Below are positions 2,071 to 21,239 of a DNA stretch of 64,000 bases, piece by piece. Origin of the DNA: Nodosilinea nodulosa PCC 7104 (GTDB lineage Bacteria; Cyanobacteriota; Cyanobacteriia; Phormidesmidales; Phormidesmidaceae); NCBI RefSeq assembly GCF_000309385.1, contig NZ_JH976537.1, positions 3,401,256 to 3,465,255 of the forward strand, in the 5' to 3' direction. Position 1 is the first letter of the stretch. Each line of letters opens with the position of its first letter. The notes under the pieces were generated by a model. That model was not told the origin of the DNA, made no database searches, and saw only the letters and a program-made list of their open reading frames with translations. The translations under genes and the position numbers were made by a program.

Positions 2071-2083
2071 TACTCCGAACACC

Positions 2084-2557
2084 ATGTTCAGATTCGTCAG
2101 ATTTACCATTTTTGGTTGCCTGCTGGCGCTGACGGCGTGCAACCCAGGTACCACACCCAAGACTTCGGTGTATGAGGTTACGGGCAGCAGCGCCAAGCGA
2201 GTTGCTGAGGTCTCGGCCATTATCACCAAGCACCAGGCACCGCCAACCGCCATTCTCGATGCCTACTTTTTAGAAGAGCAAATTGGGGACGGCATTTTAG
2301 GTCCATCGGATTTTCGGACGTTTTACGTTGTCGAGGTTGCGCCCCAGGATGTTGCCCGGTGGACAATGCTGCTCACCCCCCTCGAAGCAACGGCTGAGTA
2401 CAGCGCCCCGGCCCAGCCCCCCGCCTGGTGGATCGCCCAGGACGCCTTGGGCTCGCTCCAGTTTTACAAACCCGACCTTTTGACCGGCAGCGCCAACGGC
2501 TGGGTGGGGGTTGAACCGCAGACCGGGCGCATTTACGTTTTCACGTTTACGATGTGA
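2084..2557 (+). CDS. predicted lipoprotein of unknown function
   Basis: A 157-residue protein with a classic lipoprotein signal: basic residues (FRFVRF), a hydrophobic core and the lipobox LTAC with the acylated Cys at residue 19. The mature part is soluble and has no motif I recognise; it contains SSDFRTFYVVEV-like strands and a C-terminal TGRIYVFTFTM. It is probably anchored in the plasma or outer membrane. It begins 14 bases after the attC-like element and converges with the GH15 gene (stop codons 37 bases apart). The start is chosen because the signal peptide begins right at this ATG. Confidence 0.75.
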   Translation: MFRFVRFTIFGCLLALTACNPGTTPKTSVYEVTGSSAKRVAEVSAIITKHQAPPTAILDAYFLEEQIGDGILGPSDFRTFYVVEVAPQDVARWTMLLTPLEATAEYSAPAQPPAWWIAQDALGSLQFYKPDLLTGSANGWVGVEPQTGRIYVFTFTM

Positions 2558-2594
2558 CGATCGCGGGCACCGCCCCAGCCATCTGTTCTGCAAC

Positions 2595-4517
2595 CTATTG
2601 CTGCTCGCCCTGACGTTTTTTAGCGCCACCGCCGCCGCGACCGGCGGCATCGGCAGCGGCCCGGTGGTGGGAGTCAACGCTGCCGGTGTGCCCCACGTGG
2701 GCCAGCGACACCGCCACATTGATCACGCCCAGGTGGGAAAAGGCCTGGGGAAAGTTGCCCAGGTGCTGGCCGCTGTGGGGGTCGATCTCTTCGGCAAACA
2801 GGCCCAGGGGGGTACTGCGATCGAGCATTTGCTCGAACCAGGCGCAGGCCTCGTCGGTGCGGCCCGCCAGAATCAGCGCGTTAATTAGCCAGAAGGTGCA
2901 GAGCACAAAGGCTCCTTCCTGGCCGTGCAGCCCCTCCGGCGCTGTGTGGTAGCGGTAGCACAGGCCATTGGTCACCAGCCCGGCGATGGTGGCGTCTACC
3001 GTGGAGACCATGCGCGGATCGGTGCCGTCGATAAAGCCCATGGCGGGCAGCAGCAGGTTGGCGGCATCCAGCACCTCGTCTTCGTAGGACTGTTTGAAGG
3101 CGCCGAGTTTTTCGCTCCAGCCTTTCTCTAATACCTCGGCACGGATGGCGTCGCGCGCCTCTTGCCACCGGGCCACATCCCCGGCCAGGCTTAGGTTTGA
3201 GGCCATATCAACGCCCGCATCCAGGGCCACCCAGGCCATCACCTTGCTGTAGACGAAGTTGCGCTGGCCCCCGCGCACTTCCCAAATGCCGTGGTCGCTG
3301 TGGTGCCAGTGGCTGGCCAGCCAGTCCAGCATGGGGCGAATGTCATCCCAGATTTCGGTTGGGTCATACTTGTCGGTTTTCCACGCAAAGTGGAGGGCGC
3401 TGAGCACCTCGCCGTAGACATCGAGCTGCACCTGACTCACCGCTTTGTTGCCAATGCGCACCGGGTGAGAGTCGCGGTAGCCCTGGAATTGATCCAGCGT
3501 TTTCTCTACCACCTGGCCTTCGGCGGTGATGGGGTAGAGAATGCGGGTGTCGGTGCCCTCTAGCTGGGCGGTGTTGGCCAGCCAGGTAAAGAAGGGGTGG
3601 TGGTCGTTAAAGTAGCCCGCCATCAGCAGGGCGTAGAGGGTAAACGAGGCGTCGCGAATCCAAGTGAAGCGGTAGTCCCAGTTGCGATCGCCGCCGATCA
3701 CCTCGGGTAAGGAGGTAGTGGGTGCCGCCACGATCGCCCCCGTAGGCGAGTAGCTCATTAGCTTGAGCACCATGGCGCTGCGCAGCACCGCCTCGCGGTA
3801 GGGGCCGTGGTAGGTGCACTGGTTGGCCCAGTTCTGCCAGAAGGCGATCGCCCCATCCAGCGCTGCCGCTGGGCTGTCGTGGGGCAGGGGGCTGTCTTCC
3901 ATCTCCAGGGCAAAGCAGAGGCGATCGCCAGGGCGCAGGGTGAACTGGGTGATCAGGGTATGGTCGGCGGTGTTGACCCGCCAGTCGGTGGGGGCCACCA
4001 CCCTAAAGCCATCAAATTCGGCCACCGGGCCGACAATATCGAAGGCGGGCAACCCCCCATAGCCCGGTCTGGGGGCGCAGGTGCAGACCATCTCCACCGC
4101 TCCTTCCACCCCTTCTACCATGCGGATGAGCCGCCCTGGTGCCTGGGGGTAGGAGATCTCCTCGCTGTTCACAATTTCCATGAAGTCCAGCAGAGTGACC
4201 GAGCCGGTGGCGCACCGCAGCGTGGTCTCCAGAACATTGGTGTGGTCAATGTAGCGGTGCTCGCTGGTGCAGGGCAGGCTGGGCTGAATGGCCCAAAAGC
4301 CGCCCTGGTCTAGATCGAGAATGCGGGCAAACAGCGAGGGCGAGTCGAAGCGGGGCAGGCACAGCCAGTCGATCGAGCCAGCCCGGCTGACCAGGGCCGC
4401 CGTGTGGCAGTTGCCAATGATGCCGTAGTCGGCCAGGGGCAAAAAGTCTGGGCGTGATTTTGGCGGTGCCGCTGGGGCGATCGCGGCGGGTTGCCCAGGG
4501 GCTTGGGGCGTAGTCAT
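2595..4517 (-). CDS. glycoside hydrolase family 15 protein (glucoamylase/trehalase-like)
   Basis: A 640-residue cytoplasmic GH15-family enzyme. The N-terminal part (about residues 25-250) is the trehalase-like domain that opens with LADYGIIGNCHTAALVSRAGSIDWLCLPRFDSPS. The (alpha/alpha)6 catalytic domain follows, with PEVIGGDRNWDYRFTWIRDASFTLYAL near residue 275, GIWEVRGG (candidate general acid Glu) and a C-terminal GQEGAFVLCTFWLINAL (candidate general base Glu). In bacteria such proteins hydrolyse terminal alpha-glucosidic bonds of glucans or trehalose; the exact substrate cannot be read from sequence. Length is normal for the family. The C-terminal 20 residues are low-complexity (Gly/Ala/Arg). 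The N-terminus has a Pro/Ala-rich leader but no signal peptide. Confidence 0.92.
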   Translation of the reverse strand: MTTPQAPGQPAAIAPAAPPKSRPDFLPLADYGIIGNCHTAALVSRAGSIDWLCLPRFDSPSLFARILDLDQGGFWAIQPSLPCTSEHRYIDHTNVLETTLRCATGSVTLLDFMEIVNSEEISYPQAPGRLIRMVEGVEGAVEMVCTCAPRPGYGGLPAFDIVGPVAEFDGFRVVAPTDWRVNTADHTLITQFTLRPGDRLCFALEMEDSPLPHDSPAAALDGAIAFWQNWANQCTYHGPYREAVLRSAMVLKLMSYSPTGAIVAAPTTSLPEVIGGDRNWDYRFTWIRDASFTLYALLMAGYFNDHHPFFTWLANTAQLEGTDTRILYPITAEGQVVEKTLDQFQGYRDSHPVRIGNKAVSQVQLDVYGEVLSALHFAWKTDKYDPTEIWDDIRPMLDWLASHWHHSDHGIWEVRGGQRNFVYSKVMAWVALDAGVDMASNLSLAGDVARWQEARDAIRAEVLEKGWSEKLGAFKQSYEDEVLDAANLLLPAMGFIDGTDPRMVSTVDATIAGLVTNGLCYRYHTAPEGLHGQEGAFVLCTFWLINALILAGRTDEACAWFEQMLDRSTPLGLFAEEIDPHSGQHLGNFPQAFSHLGVINVAVSLAHVGHTGSVDSHHRAAADAAGRGGGGAKKRQGEQQ

Positions 4518-14325: not shown

Positions 14326-14706
14326 TCAAAAAATAGCGCTGCGAATTTCTTGGATAGCTTGCTTTAAAGGCTCAATCTCTTCAGCACAGATGGCATAGAC
14401 CTCTTCGGCATCAATATTGAAATAGTCATGGGCAAGCAGGTTTCTGATACCCATTACGCCTGACCAATTGATCTCGGAATGTTGATCAAAGAAATCTTGG
14501 CTAACCAGTTTACTGATTCGCTGTATATTTTCGCCAATTGAAATCAGCATCATTGCAATTGCATCTAGCCGGTCTAATCCTGCATCGTCTTGTAGAAAAT
14601 CAGCAGGGGAACGAATACCCGAAAATCGGCGTTCAATGCGTCTGATGGCTTCTTCTATTTCGAGAAAAAGCTCCAAAAGCAGAGGCCGATCATGCATACA
14701 AGGCAT
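14326..14706 (-). CDS. hepT: HepT toxin (type VII toxin-antitoxin, HEPN ribonuclease)
   Basis: A 126-residue all-helical HEPN protein. The catalytic motif R-x4-H-x-Y is RNLLAHDY (R88, H93, Y95). In studied pairs this Tyr region is adenylylated by the MntA partner, which silences the RNase. The ORF overlaps the antitoxin gene by 17 bases, the usual mntA-hepT order on this strand, so translation is coupled. A second ATG is three codons downstream (MHDRP), so the exact start is uncertain. Length is normal and no residue appears missing. Confidence 0.88.
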   Translation of the reverse strand: MPCMHDRPLLLELFLEIEEAIRRIERRFSGIRSPADFLQDDAGLDRLDAIAMMLISIGENIQRISKLVSQDFFDQHSEINWSGVMGIRNLLAHDYFNIDAEEVYAICAEEIEPLKQAIQEIRSAIF

Positions 14707-15001
14707 CCCGATCGATTCTGGTTTTAAGATATGGATTCATGCCATACCAGTACCGAACTACGTCGACTTTTCTGCCAAAAGTTTCCTCTAGCTCCGCTTT
14801 CAGGCAGGCTCGCTTTAACATATCCGGCTGCATATGAACTACGATGTCGAGATCACTATCTTCACCGGCCTGGTCCCTGGCAACGGAGCCAAAAATGCCA
14901 ATTTGACCGACGGCATATCGTTTTGCCAGATCGGCCTTGAGCGCCCTGAGCTGGGCCAGTACATCGGCTTTATTGATTGCACTCGCTGCTTGTGTTGCCA
15001 T
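14690..15001 (-). CDS. mntA: MntA antitoxin (minimal nucleotidyltransferase)
   Basis: A 103-residue nucleotidyltransferase with the full GSx10DxD motif: G38-S39 followed by D50 and D52 (GSVARDQAGEDSDLD). It neutralises HepT by transferring AMP onto it. The third acidic residue is expected on the strand KVDVVRYW. It is the first gene of the two-gene operon. A dispersed repeat copy lies just upstream at 15035-15130. Confidence 0.88.
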   Translation of the reverse strand: MATQAASAINKADVLAQLRALKADLAKRYAVGQIGIFGSVARDQAGEDSDLDIVVHMQPDMLKRACLKAELEETFGRKVDVVRYWYGMNPYLKTRIDRDALYA

Positions 15002-17737: not shown

Positions 17738-18079
17738 CTAGAGATTCGGGCGATTGACTCGAATTAACTGGCCTGCCAGGCTGCCCGCCGCCAGAATAGC
17801 CGCATCTATCCGACTGGCTAACCGCTGACGATCCAGATCCTCTGTGCAGACAATGATGCCAGCATGATCAGGGCTTTGCCTATGGAGCCGAATAAAGTCA
17901 GCTCGGTTGACGGTCAAGACAGCCCTACTTTGGCTGGTGGCAAAGGCTAACACTTGCTCATCAGGGATACGCTGGTTGGCTTGCCCAGCCGCTTGAACCG
18001 TTAAAACATCATGGTTTAGGTCTTGCAGCAGATGGCTTACTTTTCTGGGAAACCCCTCATCGGCATAGAGTCGAGCCAT
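17738..18079 (-). CDS. DUF5615 PIN-like toxin
   Basis: A 113-residue PIN-like protein of the DUF5615 family, the usual toxin partner of DUF433 proteins and probably a ribonuclease. The N-terminal ARLYADEGFPRKVSHLL carries the first acidic pair, IPDEQVLAFATSQSRAVLTVNRADFIRL the second (DxDF-like), and GIIVCTEDLD follows. It lies 6 bases after the DUF433 gene on the same strand, the standard antitoxin-first order. Confidence 0.82.
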   Translation of the reverse strand: MARLYADEGFPRKVSHLLQDLNHDVLTVQAAGQANQRIPDEQVLAFATSQSRAVLTVNRADFIRLHRQSPDHAGIIVCTEDLDRQRLASRIDAAILAAGSLAGQLIRVNRPNL

Positions 18080-18085
18080 GTTTGA

Positions 18086-18412
18086 TTAAGCCGCTGCTTG
18101 TCGCTGAATGGCCCCCTCAATCTCCTCAGGATTTGCGCTGGCGTAAAGCCAGGCGTTGGCTAAATCGGCAGCGGTCAAATCAGGATAGTCTTCTAGCAAA
18201 TACGTTTCTGTCGCTCCCTGCCGCCGCAAGCTCACGAGTAACCATACGGGGATGCGAGTTTGACGAATGCAGGCATCGCCCCCCATCACGTTAGGTGTTT
18301 TTTCGATGCCTACCCAGGTACCGCTAAGACTGGCCACTAGCATCTGAATCGCCTGGGCCTTTTCCTGGGAAGACAAGGCCATCAGCTGGGATTGGAGCTG
18401 CTCAAGAGTCAT
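18086..18412 (-). CDS. DUF433 antitoxin
   Basis: A 108-residue protein with a C-terminal DUF433 domain: TPNVMGGDACIRQTRIPVWLLVSLRRQGATETYLLEDYPDLTAADLANAWLYA, a winged-helix-like DNA-binding region common in cyanobacterial antitoxins. The N-terminal 30 residues (LEQLQSQLMALSSQEKAQAIQML) form a predicted helical coiled segment. It is expected to neutralise the PIN-like toxin encoded next to it and to repress the operon. Confidence 0.85.
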   Translation of the reverse strand: MTLEQLQSQLMALSSQEKAQAIQMLVASLSGTWVGIEKTPNVMGGDACIRQTRIPVWLLVSLRRQGATETYLLEDYPDLTAADLANAWLYASANPEEIEGAIQRQAAA

Positions 18413-18555: not shown

Positions 18556-19575
18556 TTAGTCGCCTTGCTCAACCACATCATCGGCGAATTCAGGCTCCCT
18601 CCCCCGGGGCAGCACGTTGAACCGCTGACGTACATCCACCAGCGGGTCGGCGAAGTAATCCCACGGATTCATATCCGTCAGCAGATCGGTATTGACGTGG
18701 GTGCCGTGCTCTATGCCCGCAAAGATGTACTCAGGGTCCAGCAGGTTCTTTTCGCCCGGAATGTAGGGTGATGTGCCAATGCCCAGCTCAAACTCGGCCA
18801 TTACAAACATCAGAACGTCGAAAGGATCGAGCTTTTCAAAGCCAGCCTGAAAGCCGACCACGCCCCCTTCTTCCTTTGCGGTTGTCCCGTAGCCGCCCAG
18901 GACGTGGCAGCAGTCGTGGAGCATAGCTGGCGGGGGTGGTCCACCTACCTCGCCGGGGAAGTTAAAGCCATTGCGAAGAATAAAGTCGGCATAGGCCCGG
19001 CCAAAACTGCCTTCTGGGTACTCTGCTAGAGCCCGGTAGCGGCTGGCCATGGCCTTGTCTTCTTGGCCAAGCAAGACTTTTGCTATGGCCAATGCGCCGG
19101 GGAGACCTTCCTGGCGCAGGGTAGTTTTAACGGCTGCCCCCAGGAAGCTGCGGCGGGCAATATCGAGCCGCAGCAGCATGAGCCGTTTTCCCATGGTTCT
19201 GCGGTAGGTGGCCACGGGGGCATCGTCTACGCCAAAAGCCCGAGCCGTATCGCTGAGCAGCCTGAGGTGATCGGCGGAGGGGTCGCCATCGAACATTGCG
19301 ATCAGCGTCATGCCGCGCAAAATTCGCTCCCGCCATTGGGGATCGCTGTCAATGGCGATTAGCCGCCGGGCCAGCTCCTGGGGCGGCAGGGGCTCCAGAC
19401 TCTCCAGGTCGAGATCGATGTGGAGCAGGTGATCGCGCACGCCGGTCATGGCGGCCATCGTCTTGGCGGAGGGAGTTCCGTGCAGGCTTGCCATGGCCTT
19501 CAGGCCAGCCAGCCCGACCCGGCCAAGGGCCTCCCGCTCCGCATCGGGAAGGTTGATTTGTAGTCTGGAAACCAT
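18556..19575 (-). CDS. uncharacterised protein with Coq4-like HDxxH-x11-E motif
   Basis: A 339-residue soluble protein. The C-terminal half contains LHDCCHVLGGYGTTAKEEG: H220, D221, H224 and E236 match the HDxxH-x11-E zinc-site motif of Coq4-family proteins, which act in ubiquinone synthesis. The N-terminal half (about residues 15-140) is helical, with GMTLIAMFDGDPSADHLRLLSDTARAFGVDD, reminiscent of TerB-like domains. The combination is inferred; I do not recognise a named family and cannot give a reaction. No signal peptide or membrane segment is seen. A strong palindrome at 19613-19627 lies 38 bases upstream of the start, suggesting repressor control. It is not obviously in an operon. Confidence 0.75.
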   Translation of the reverse strand: MVSRLQINLPDAEREALGRVGLAGLKAMASLHGTPSAKTMAAMTGVRDHLLHIDLDLESLEPLPPQELARRLIAIDSDPQWRERILRGMTLIAMFDGDPSADHLRLLSDTARAFGVDDAPVATYRRTMGKRLMLLRLDIARRSFLGAAVKTTLRQEGLPGALAIAKVLLGQEDKAMASRYRALAEYPEGSFGRAYADFILRNGFNFPGEVGGPPPPAMLHDCCHVLGGYGTTAKEEGGVVGFQAGFEKLDPFDVLMFVMAEFELGIGTSPYIPGEKNLLDPEYIFAGIEHGTHVNTDLLTDMNPWDYFADPLVDVRQRFNVLPRGREPEFADDVVEQGD

Positions 19576-19612
19576 AGTAGAAACCCAAACGCTCTATCTG
19601 TCTACAGGCTAA

Positions 19613-19627
19613 ACTAAACCGTTTAGT
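19613..19627. promoter_or_regulatory. operator-like palindrome ACTAAAC-C-GTTTAGT
   Basis: Perfect 7-base arms around a single central base. CTAAAC/GTTTAG palindromes are typical operators of TetR-family repressors. On the minus strand TATACT (19625-19630), a good -10 candidate, overlaps one arm, so a bound repressor would block the promoter of the gene starting at 19575. No TetR gene is seen in the window. Confidence 0.5.
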
Positions 19628-19994
19628 ATAGCAAGTCCGGAGGCGCAAAATGGCTAATATCGGTTCTCCAAAAGCCGGATTGGCGGCGGCGATCGCCGCG
19701 AGGCAGCGCACCGGGCCAGTGCGCCTGCGGGTTGAGGATCGGCTCTGCTTATGACCTCGGGTAGATGTCCCCAGGGGCTCACTACCTAAGCTAAAGGTAC
19801 AGGTCCATTGAGCTAGGCCATCCAGGGCCATGCATAGCGCCGGTCGGCGACCTCAGACACCCATTCAACCCTGACCATATCTAGCTGCGTTGGCACGATT
19901 TTGGCCCGCCAGAGTTGCAAAGGTGCCGCCTGCGGGGCGGGTTGGCGACGCTCAGGCTCCGACCGTGGCTCAATCCTGACGGTTGGTTGAAACA
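19628..19994. other. intergenic region with a doubtful 34-codon ORF
   Basis: A plus-strand ATG at 19650 opens a 34-residue frame (MANIGSPKAG..) ending at 19754. It has no recognisable motif and may be the start of a lost gene that was divergently transcribed across the palindrome. The rest holds nothing I can identify. Confidence 0.35.
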
Positions 19995-21239
19995 GTGAGT
20001 CCCAATTTGACCGAAATTAATCTGGCTTTACTCACCCTCAGCGCCCTGGTGCTGCTGATGGGCATTTTCTCTAATCCCATGCGGGCTAGGCTCTGGCTGT
20101 CTGAGCCGCTGATTGCTCTGGCGGTGGGAGTTTTGCTCAGTCCGGCGGTCACCGACTGGATTCGGCTGTCTGACTTTGGCGATCCGTTCGTGATTCTGCA
20201 AGAGACGGCCCGACTCACCCTGGCGATTCAGATTATGGGCATTGCTCTGCGCTTGCCCAGGGGTTACCCGTTTCAGCACTGGCGACCCCTGGTGGTGCTA
20301 TTGGGGGTGGCAATGCCGCTGATGGCGTTGGTCAGCGGTCTGCTGGTCTGCTGGATTTTGGGGCTGCCCTTTTGGGTGGGAATGCTGATCGGCGCGATCG
20401 CCGCCCCTACCGACCCTGTGGTCGCCACTGCCATTGTCACCGGCCCGCTGGCCCAGCGCCTGCTGCCCAACCAGATTCGCCATACGATCTCGGTCGAATC
20501 GGGAGCCAACGACGGATTGGCCTATCCCCTGGTGCTGCTGCCGATTTTGCTGCTCAACCAACCATCCCACCAGGCCCTGTGGCACTGGCTGACCAGAACC
20601 ATTTTGTGGGAAGTAGGCGGGGCGATTGTGTTGGGGGCGCTAATTGGCTATGGTGCCGGGCGACTGGCCCACTGGGCCGAGGCGCACAACACCACCCACA
20701 ATCGATCGTTCTTTTCGTTTACGGTGGCGCTGGCGGTCCTGGTCTTGGCGGCGGTAAAGCTGCTCCATAGCGACGGCATTCTGGCGGTGTTCGTGGCGGG
20801 GCTGGTGCTCAACCTGATGGTGGGCAACGATCCAATCCACGAGGAGTATGACGTGCAGCAGGCGATCGAACTTCTGTTTGCCCTGCTGGTGTTTTTACTG
20901 CTGGGGCTGGCGATTCCCTGGCGGCAGTGGGTTGAGCTAGGCTGGCCCGGATTGCTGCTGGGGCTGGCAATTTTGGCGCTGCGGCGGTTGCCTGTCCTGC
21001 TGCTGCTGAAGCGGTGGGTCAAACCCCTGCACAGCTGGGACGATGCTTTCTTTATGGGCTGGTTTGGCCCGATTGGGGTGGCGGCGCTGTTTTACGCCAT
21101 GGTGGCCCTGGAGCGCACCCATTTGCAGTCGGTTTGGGTTGTGACCAGTCTGCTGATCTGCGCCTCCGTCGTGGCCTTTGGCTTCACCGATACCCCCCTG
21201 ACCAAGCGCTATGGCCACCATAAGCAGGGGCAGCTCTAG
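19995..21239 (+). CDS. CPA1-type Na+(K+)/H+ antiporter
   Basis: A cation:proton antiporter of about 414 residues with twelve or so membrane helices. The core motifs are APTDPVVATAIVTGPLAQ (TDP on the crossover helix) and SVESGANDGLAYP, the ND pair typical of CPA1/NhaP-like proteins. A conserved ending GWFGPIGVAALFYAMVAL follows. It probably moves Na+ or K+ out against H+. The start is uncertain: GTG at 19995 and TTG at 19983 are in frame and neither has a clear ribosome binding site. There is no cytosolic C-terminal regulatory domain. Confidence 0.87.
   Translation: MSPNLTEINLALLTLSALVLLMGIFSNPMRARLWLSEPLIALAVGVLLSPAVTDWIRLSDFGDPFVILQETARLTLAIQIMGIALRLPRGYPFQHWRPLVVLLGVAMPLMALVSGLLVCWILGLPFWVGMLIGAIAAPTDPVVATAIVTGPLAQRLLPNQIRHTISVESGANDGLAYPLVLLPILLLNQPSHQALWHWLTRTILWEVGGAIVLGALIGYGAGRLAHWAEAHNTTHNRSFFSFTVALAVLVLAAVKLLHSDGILAVFVAGLVLNLMVGNDPIHEEYDVQQAIELLFALLVFLLLGLAIPWRQWVELGWPGLLLGLAILALRRLPVLLLLKRWVKPLHSWDDAFFMGWFGPIGVAALFYAMVALERTHLQSVWVVTSLLICASVVAFGFTDTPLTKRYGHHKQGQL

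Follow-up and report, generated by a model that had tools for sequence, protein, structure and literature searches.

The window, our term for the whole 64,000-nucleotide stretch of Nodosilinea nodulosa PCC 7104 DNA that was analyzed, contains an ORF that starts with ATG and encodes a protein with a TerB-like N-terminal part and a Coq4-like C-terminal part (Table 1). On the same strand, 143 nt downstream of this coq4-like gene, lie a DUF433 gene and then a DUF5615 gene; the two are adjacent (window positions 17738 to 18412, minus strand), an arrangement that we take to be a toxin-antitoxin-like pair. A divergent Na+/H+ exchanger ORF (19983 to 21239, plus strand) starts 407 nt upstream of the coq4-like gene. 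Two small ORFs elsewhere in the window (14326 to 15001, minus strand) resembled a HEPN (HepT) and nucleotidyltransferase (MntA) pair when their translations were inspected by eye.

Table 1. Features of the coq4-like locus (window coordinates)
Feature	Position	Strand	Basis
TerB-like/Coq4-like two-domain protein, 339 aa	18556..19575	minus	ORF, model, alignment
TerB-like helical domain, N-terminal, residues ~10-128, borders approximate	19192..19548	minus	2ou3 profile match; VIA
Coq4-fold domain, C-terminal, residues ~145-323	18607..19143	minus	3msq and 6e12 profile matches; VIA
HDxxH-x11-E motif, residues 220-236	18868..18918	minus	Invariant in 58/58 aligned sequences
TetR-type operator ACTAAACCGTTTAGT	19613..19627	.	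37 nt upstream of start codon; exact-copy and control scans
Extended -10-like element TGCTATACT, tentative	19625..19633	minus	Read from sequence; final three bases common to operator

To compare the protein with known structures, we used a profile built from 58 sequences. The C-terminal half matched two solved Nostoc proteins, 3MSQ (E = 7.5e-7) and 6E12 (E = 5e-6), and its HDxxH-x11-E motif aligned with theirs without a gap; the N-terminal part matched the TerB-like protein 2OU3 (E = 1.7e-4). The AlphaFold2 model of the whole protein (pLDDT 90.5, pTM 0.89) was compared with solved structures using VIA-align, which gave Z scores of 12.7 for 6e12_B (rmsd 4.7, 148 residues aligned), 10.2 for 3msq_A (rmsd 6.1, 165 aligned), and 10.2 for 2ou3_A (rmsd 4.5, 141 aligned), the last a value that would be weak on its own for the TerB-like domain, helical folds being prone to inflated Z scores. 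When the C-terminal part was modeled separately (pLDDT 87.5), it matched 6e12_B (Z 12.5, rmsd 4.3, 143 aligned) and 3msq_A (Z 10.2, rmsd 4.2, 149 aligned), and the first unrelated row followed at a Z of 3.0. Foldseek E values against the PDB were weak (best, 3.6e-3), and hence the fold assignment rested on the profile and VIA results; viral structures gave no match at E values of 0.001 or less. The original prediction was that H220, D221, H224, and E236 have the spacing of a Coq4-type metal site and are joined to a TerB-like helical region. These residues were found at that spacing in both the translated ORF and the alignment, and the TerB-like region was recovered by both methods. In the model, the helices that carry the motif (residues 215 to 227 and 233 to 246) lie within the Coq4-fold part; a predicted fold lacking the site was not what we obtained. 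We concluded that the VIA scores, the sequence profile, and the motif agree on a Coq4-like fold for the modeled C-terminal part.

Family membership was a separate matter. The Pfam Coq4 model (PF05019) gave the protein 15 bits, below the cutoff of 22.9 bits, with only residues 181 to 204 aligned, and 12.4 bits when scored from DNA; NCBIfam gave no match. Among the 58 aligned sequences, 54 matched PF05019 at E values up to 0.1 (best, 2.8e-5). Similarly, 33 of the 58 matched the TerB model PF05099 at E values up to 0.1, and the 339-aa protein itself had no match to it up to an E value of 10. We concluded that the protein is Coq4-like but not a member of PF05019, so that the predicted Coq4-type identity stood for fold and motif but not for the family score.

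Positions invariant in the 58 sequences include D138, R141, H220, D221, H224, E236, A244, G245, and R316. Conservation of the motif was also determined in two sets of relatives. The first comprised the best 80 of 210 relatives from genome_contigs, for which the H/D/H residues, though not E236, were part of the search pattern; the equivalent of E236 was present in all 80. The second comprised 28 relatives from other genomes, found by protein or profile search, of which four were identical to rows of the first set. Here H/D/H was present in 28 of 28 and the glutamate in 27 of 28, the exception (L017, 39% identical) having K in its place.

Three other Coq4-family genes in the same genome score above the PF05019 cutoff and retain the motif. 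One Coq4-family ORF, scoring 62.6 bits (L206:1501-2124, minus strand; C1 near 3305573; longest ORF, with a TTG start), shares 47 nt with the end of a P450 (cytochrome) gene on the same strand (2078 to 3427, minus strand), which suggests a P450-Coq4 operon. The TerB-like domain of this genome that most resembles the N-terminal part of the protein is in L041:1459-2142 (plus strand), fused to a Mo-nitro_C domain, and ORFs similar in length to L041 match the N-terminal part in many genomes of the class.

The operator ACTAAACCGTTTAGT is a 7-1-7 palindrome with both arms exact and one central base, in line with the palindromic operator of the original prediction. As to its proposed overlap with a promoter, the -10-like element TGCTATACT shares three bases with it; a strict sigma-70 scan of the region around the operator found no promoter. 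Exact copies of the palindrome numbered 3 in the 6.9-Mb genome, compared with 0.003 expected from the dinucleotide composition of the window. Over 57 genomes, there were 39 exact sites and 2 for a reversed-pattern control, which had none in the N. nodulosa genome. With two mismatches allowed, enrichment was not observed (15 sites versus 27 for the reversed control); hence, only exact or one-mismatch sites were counted.

The three exact copies lie before the coq4-like gene, before tolC (C1:4095775), and between a TetR gene (TetR_A) and devBCA on C2, with a DUF1400 hydrolase gene beside devBCA and TetR_A. A copy with one mismatch precedes a second TetR gene, TetR_B (C1:2964025-2964615). DevB, DevC, and DevA scored 361.1, 473.8, and 362.6 bits against NCBIfam cutoffs of 129, 290.35, and 295.8 bits, respectively. 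Pfam cutoffs were exceeded by OEP in TolC and by TetR_N and TetR_C_7 (PF14246, AefR type) in both TetR_A and TetR_B, which are paralogs with 39% identity. A third TetR protein, TetR_C (C1:686497), may also be a regulator but is not favored; its own site has two mismatches, a class not enriched over the reversed control. Thus, the check proposed at the outset, a look through the genome for TetR genes that carry the same kind of site, returned TetR_A with an exact site and TetR_B with one mismatch. The TetR-type operator of the original prediction was supported, but the predicted regulon is one of TolC/DevBCA export and not of quinone genes.

Outside this genome, 36 exact sites were found in 27 genomes, and all were inspected. 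Their targets were tolC (22 sites, all in the genus), TetR/devB-type pairs (8 sites), DUF1400-type hydrolase genes (2 sites), an FAD monooxygenase gene (1 site), and a response-regulator gene (1 site); 2 sites were inside ORFs. Three sites therefore fell outside the export regulon: L204, which is 98 nt before the response-regulator gene, and the two inside ORFs (L062 and L087), which look like chance occurrences.

An exact site precedes tolC in 21 of 25 congeners, and the same 21 keep a near-exact TetR_B site. Of the 26 genus genomes, the 22 with exact sites are also the 22 with a TetR_B ortholog of at least 75% identity, with the qualification that the 75% threshold was picked after the data had been seen and that counts from related congeners ignore kinship. 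Of the other four genomes, two have a TetR_B ortholog with 69% identity and two have none (best match, 37% or less). At 22 of 24 loci, a site with one or two mismatches lies upstream of the TetR_B gene itself; none was found for the two orthologs with 69% identity, although the upstream sequence available for one of these was just 252 nt long. Clear orthologs of TetR_A are limited to two congeners (81% and 68% identity), where paired sites are also found. A role for TetR_A as the sole regulator is unlikely, given clear orthologs in two congeners versus a tolC site in 21 of 25. Because TetR_B orthologs co-occur with the sites and keep a site of their own, and because TetR_A is rare, we consider TetR_B most likely to be the resident regulator, with TetR_A as a second regulator tied to devBCA.

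The FAD monooxygenase gene is in congener G017 (L200:2060-3304, plus strand), where a second exact copy of the operator in that genome lies 44 nt upstream of it. Its best NCBIfam match scored 476 bits against a cutoff of 500 bits, and its similarity to the UbiH/COQ6 family was far below the cutoff. At E values up to 1e-50, G017 was the only one of the 26 genus genomes with this gene. From its sequence context, it parallels the coq4-like gene as an apparently strain-specific enzyme behind the operator of the export regulon.

No full-length relative of the coq4-like protein was found in the 25 congeners; matches in 15 of them cover the TerB-like part only. The eight closest relatives from genome_contigs, among the best 80 of 210, are from Vulcanococcus and Synechococcus and are 54 to 63% identical. 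In a maximum-likelihood tree of 106 rows, the protein fell into a 12-row clade (support, 100/99) together with eight Synechococcaceae and three genomes of one family (f2); its placement inside the clade was weak (97/41). Horizontal acquisition is the simplest reading, with the Synechococcus group as the most likely donor; old inheritance with many losses may be an alternative. Likewise, no close counterpart of the divergent Na+/H+ exchanger was found in the genus (best in congeners, ~30% identity), so that a larger acquired stretch is possible. A scan of up to 300 nt upstream of 108 relatives, from start codons guessed by script and with only 135 nt available at one locus, found the operator at three or fewer mismatches in none of them and a single match with four mismatches. 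Inheritance of the operator from the donor is therefore not supported, and the site was probably gained in the N. nodulosa lineage.

We surveyed the neighbors of relatives at 75 loci with called neighbors; one representative of each neighbor family was identified with Pfam and the others by BLAST to that representative. The resulting figures are raw counts without a control set, from loci that are related within a genus. Of 22 Nitrospirota loci, 16 have a gene for an HlyD-type adaptor among the next four genes downstream, on the same strand, accompanied by an AcrB-type pump in 10, and a GAF/sigma-54 activator gene lies upstream at 21. At seven Reyranella-type loci, a MATE gene follows on the same strand, and a divergent TetR gene is present at three. 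Some relatives are thus neighbors of efflux genes, of the RND type in Nitrospira and the MATE type in Reyranella. At seven loci of the Cyanobium/Aphanothece type (L101 to L105, L107, and L108), the TerB-Coq4 gene starts 5 nt after the end of katG, which likely reflects an operon with catalase-peroxidase. The loci closest to the window protein (L088 to L095) showed no consistent efflux or other partner; their neighbors, judged by eye, were housekeeping-like (for example, trmE and nadC). Two of them, L094 and L095 (Synechococcus), have a second TerB-Coq4-like gene, fourth downstream and ~3.7 kb away on the other strand. A quinone operon was also considered and rejected, no quinone gene having been noticed near relatives; nine cluster representatives were scanned with Pfam, and the rest were judged by eye or left unread.

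Three papers bear on the chemistry. COQ4 is described as a zinc-dependent C1 decarboxylase in vitro, acting on a coenzyme Q precursor (PMC7615680); removal of the C1 carboxyl by COQ4 is also described in PMC12938788, where work in cells is said to point to oxidative decarboxylation (citing Pelosi 2024). The structure of Alr8543 (6E12) has magnesium at the HDxxH-x11-E motif, whereas the original prediction pointed to zinc, and contains oleic acid (PMC9774615). On the analogy of COQ4 and Alr8543, the window protein is expected to bind a metal as well as a lipophilic substrate.

The fold, the motif, the operator, its shared copies, and the restricted distribution of the gene were all established by computation. 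Overall, the fold, motif, TerB-like domain, operator, and TetR genes of the original reading were supported, and the findings differ from it in an export regulon in place of quinone genes and in a score below the family cutoff; the operator common to the TolC/DevBCA export genes is the new part. The account toward which we lean is that the protein is a horizontally acquired Coq4-fold metalloenzyme under the repressor of an export regulon, coinduced with a pump and modifying a lipophilic compound. The coq4-like gene would have come under the operator recognized by an AefR-like TetR protein already present in the genome (TetR_B and/or TetR_A). The same repressor would control the outer-membrane channel TolC and, by way of TetR_A, the DevBCA exporter. 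We infer that the repressor binds the site and that a hydrophobic inducer would release it, upon which TolC, DevBCA, and the Coq4-like enzyme would rise together. Since the operator is shared with the TolC/DevBCA genes, induction of the coq4-like gene probably coincides with that of the pump. The enzyme would act on its compound before or beside export, and most likely on the compound that also induces the pump. Catalysis would be a metal-dependent decarboxylation by analogy with COQ4, and a lipophilic aromatic or quinone-like substrate is our guess. The regulatory half of this account is highly probable and an enzymatic role for the Coq4-like protein fairly probable; quinone or aromatic chemistry is possible but doubtful.

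Coincidence, or service to the divergent exchanger, would leave the coq4-like gene outside the regulon. The exchanger gene is on the other side of the intergenic region that holds the operator and likewise lacks a close match among the congeners, and the two exact sites inside ORFs of other genomes indicate that chance sites exist. However, an exact site is expected at 0.003 per genome, and the operator is 37 nt from the Coq4-like start versus 355 nt from the exchanger ORF and adjoins a -10-like element on the Coq4-like strand; we regard this explanation as very improbable. Nearly as improbable, in our judgment, is an enzyme of a pathway to plastoquinone or a related compound, whose promoter would share the efflux operator so that the supply of quinone can respond to membrane stress. 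This would fit the removal of the C1 carboxyl from a coenzyme Q precursor by COQ4 (PMC7615680 and PMC12938788). It is opposed by the three other Coq4-family genes above the cutoff in the genome and by the neighborhoods of relatives, where, mostly by eye, no quinone gene was noticed. The congeners, moreover, must make plastoquinone, and none of the 25 has a full-length relative.

A nonenzymatic protein that binds lipids or prenyl chains is unlikely, though less so; during pump activity, such a protein would carry a hydrophobic compound or keep it sequestered, or would help in membrane assembly or protection. Such a role is consistent with the oleic acid and magnesium held by Alr8543 (PMC9774615), with the initial view of COQ4 as a purely structural chaperone of its complex (PMC12938788), and with a TerB-like partner domain that could be a scaffold. 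Retention of the entire motif across distant relatives argues against it, as does the report that double mutants in the HD-xx-H-(x)11-E motif of COQ4 gave no decarboxylation product (PMC7615680).

If the preferred account of an acquired, pump-coinduced metalloenzyme is correct, the predicted repressor, operator, pump, and metal site together offer a handle, in that inducers of the pump would be candidate substrates of the enzyme. It also suggests how a strain may extend a conserved export regulon, with single acquired enzymes put behind the operator, as for the Coq4-like enzyme here and the FAD monooxygenase in G017. A broader proposal, which we consider speculative and on balance unlikely, is that the Coq4 fold has an efflux-coupled branch, in which TerB-Coq4 proteins serve export and oxidant defense regulons as mobile accessory enzymes and use the Coq4-type metal site to disarm lipophilic aromatic or quinone-type toxins chemically. 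If true, the quinone decarboxylase of eukaryotes would have a sister in bacteria that acts in detoxification.

To our knowledge, no role has been assigned to Coq4 relatives in bacteria that do not make ubiquinone. In a literature search that covered few subscription papers, none of the matches listed concerned, by title, a TetR regulator of cyanobacterial TolC or DevBCA; nor did this search, with most subscription papers outside it, find work linking AefR, TetR, and efflux in cyanobacteria, work joining TerB and Coq4, or titles on bacterial Coq4.

The window protein is like Coq4/COQ4 (PF05019; 6E12 Alr8543 and 3MSQ) in its C-terminal fold and gap-free HDxxH-x11-E motif. In contrast to those proteins, it scores below the family cutoff, has an extra N-terminal TerB-like domain of ~120 aa, and is absent from congeners, with no link to ubiquinone genes seen. 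Its N-terminal helical domain is like TerB/COG3793 (2OU3, a Nostoc tellurite resistance protein) in profile and fold, but it has no PF05099 match, and a link to tellurite is not implied. TetR_A and TetR_B are like AefR-type TetR repressors, with domains above the cutoffs and a site in their own upstream regions; here, however, the sites link an acquired Coq4-like gene with TolC and DevBCA, and two paralogs share one operator. The export genes are like the DevBCA-TolC exporter of cyanobacteria, with devB, devC, and devA above NCBIfam cutoffs and an outer-membrane efflux gene elsewhere. The heterocyst DevBCA system pairs with HgdD, whereas devBCA in this genome adjoins a TetR gene and a DUF1400 hydrolase gene.
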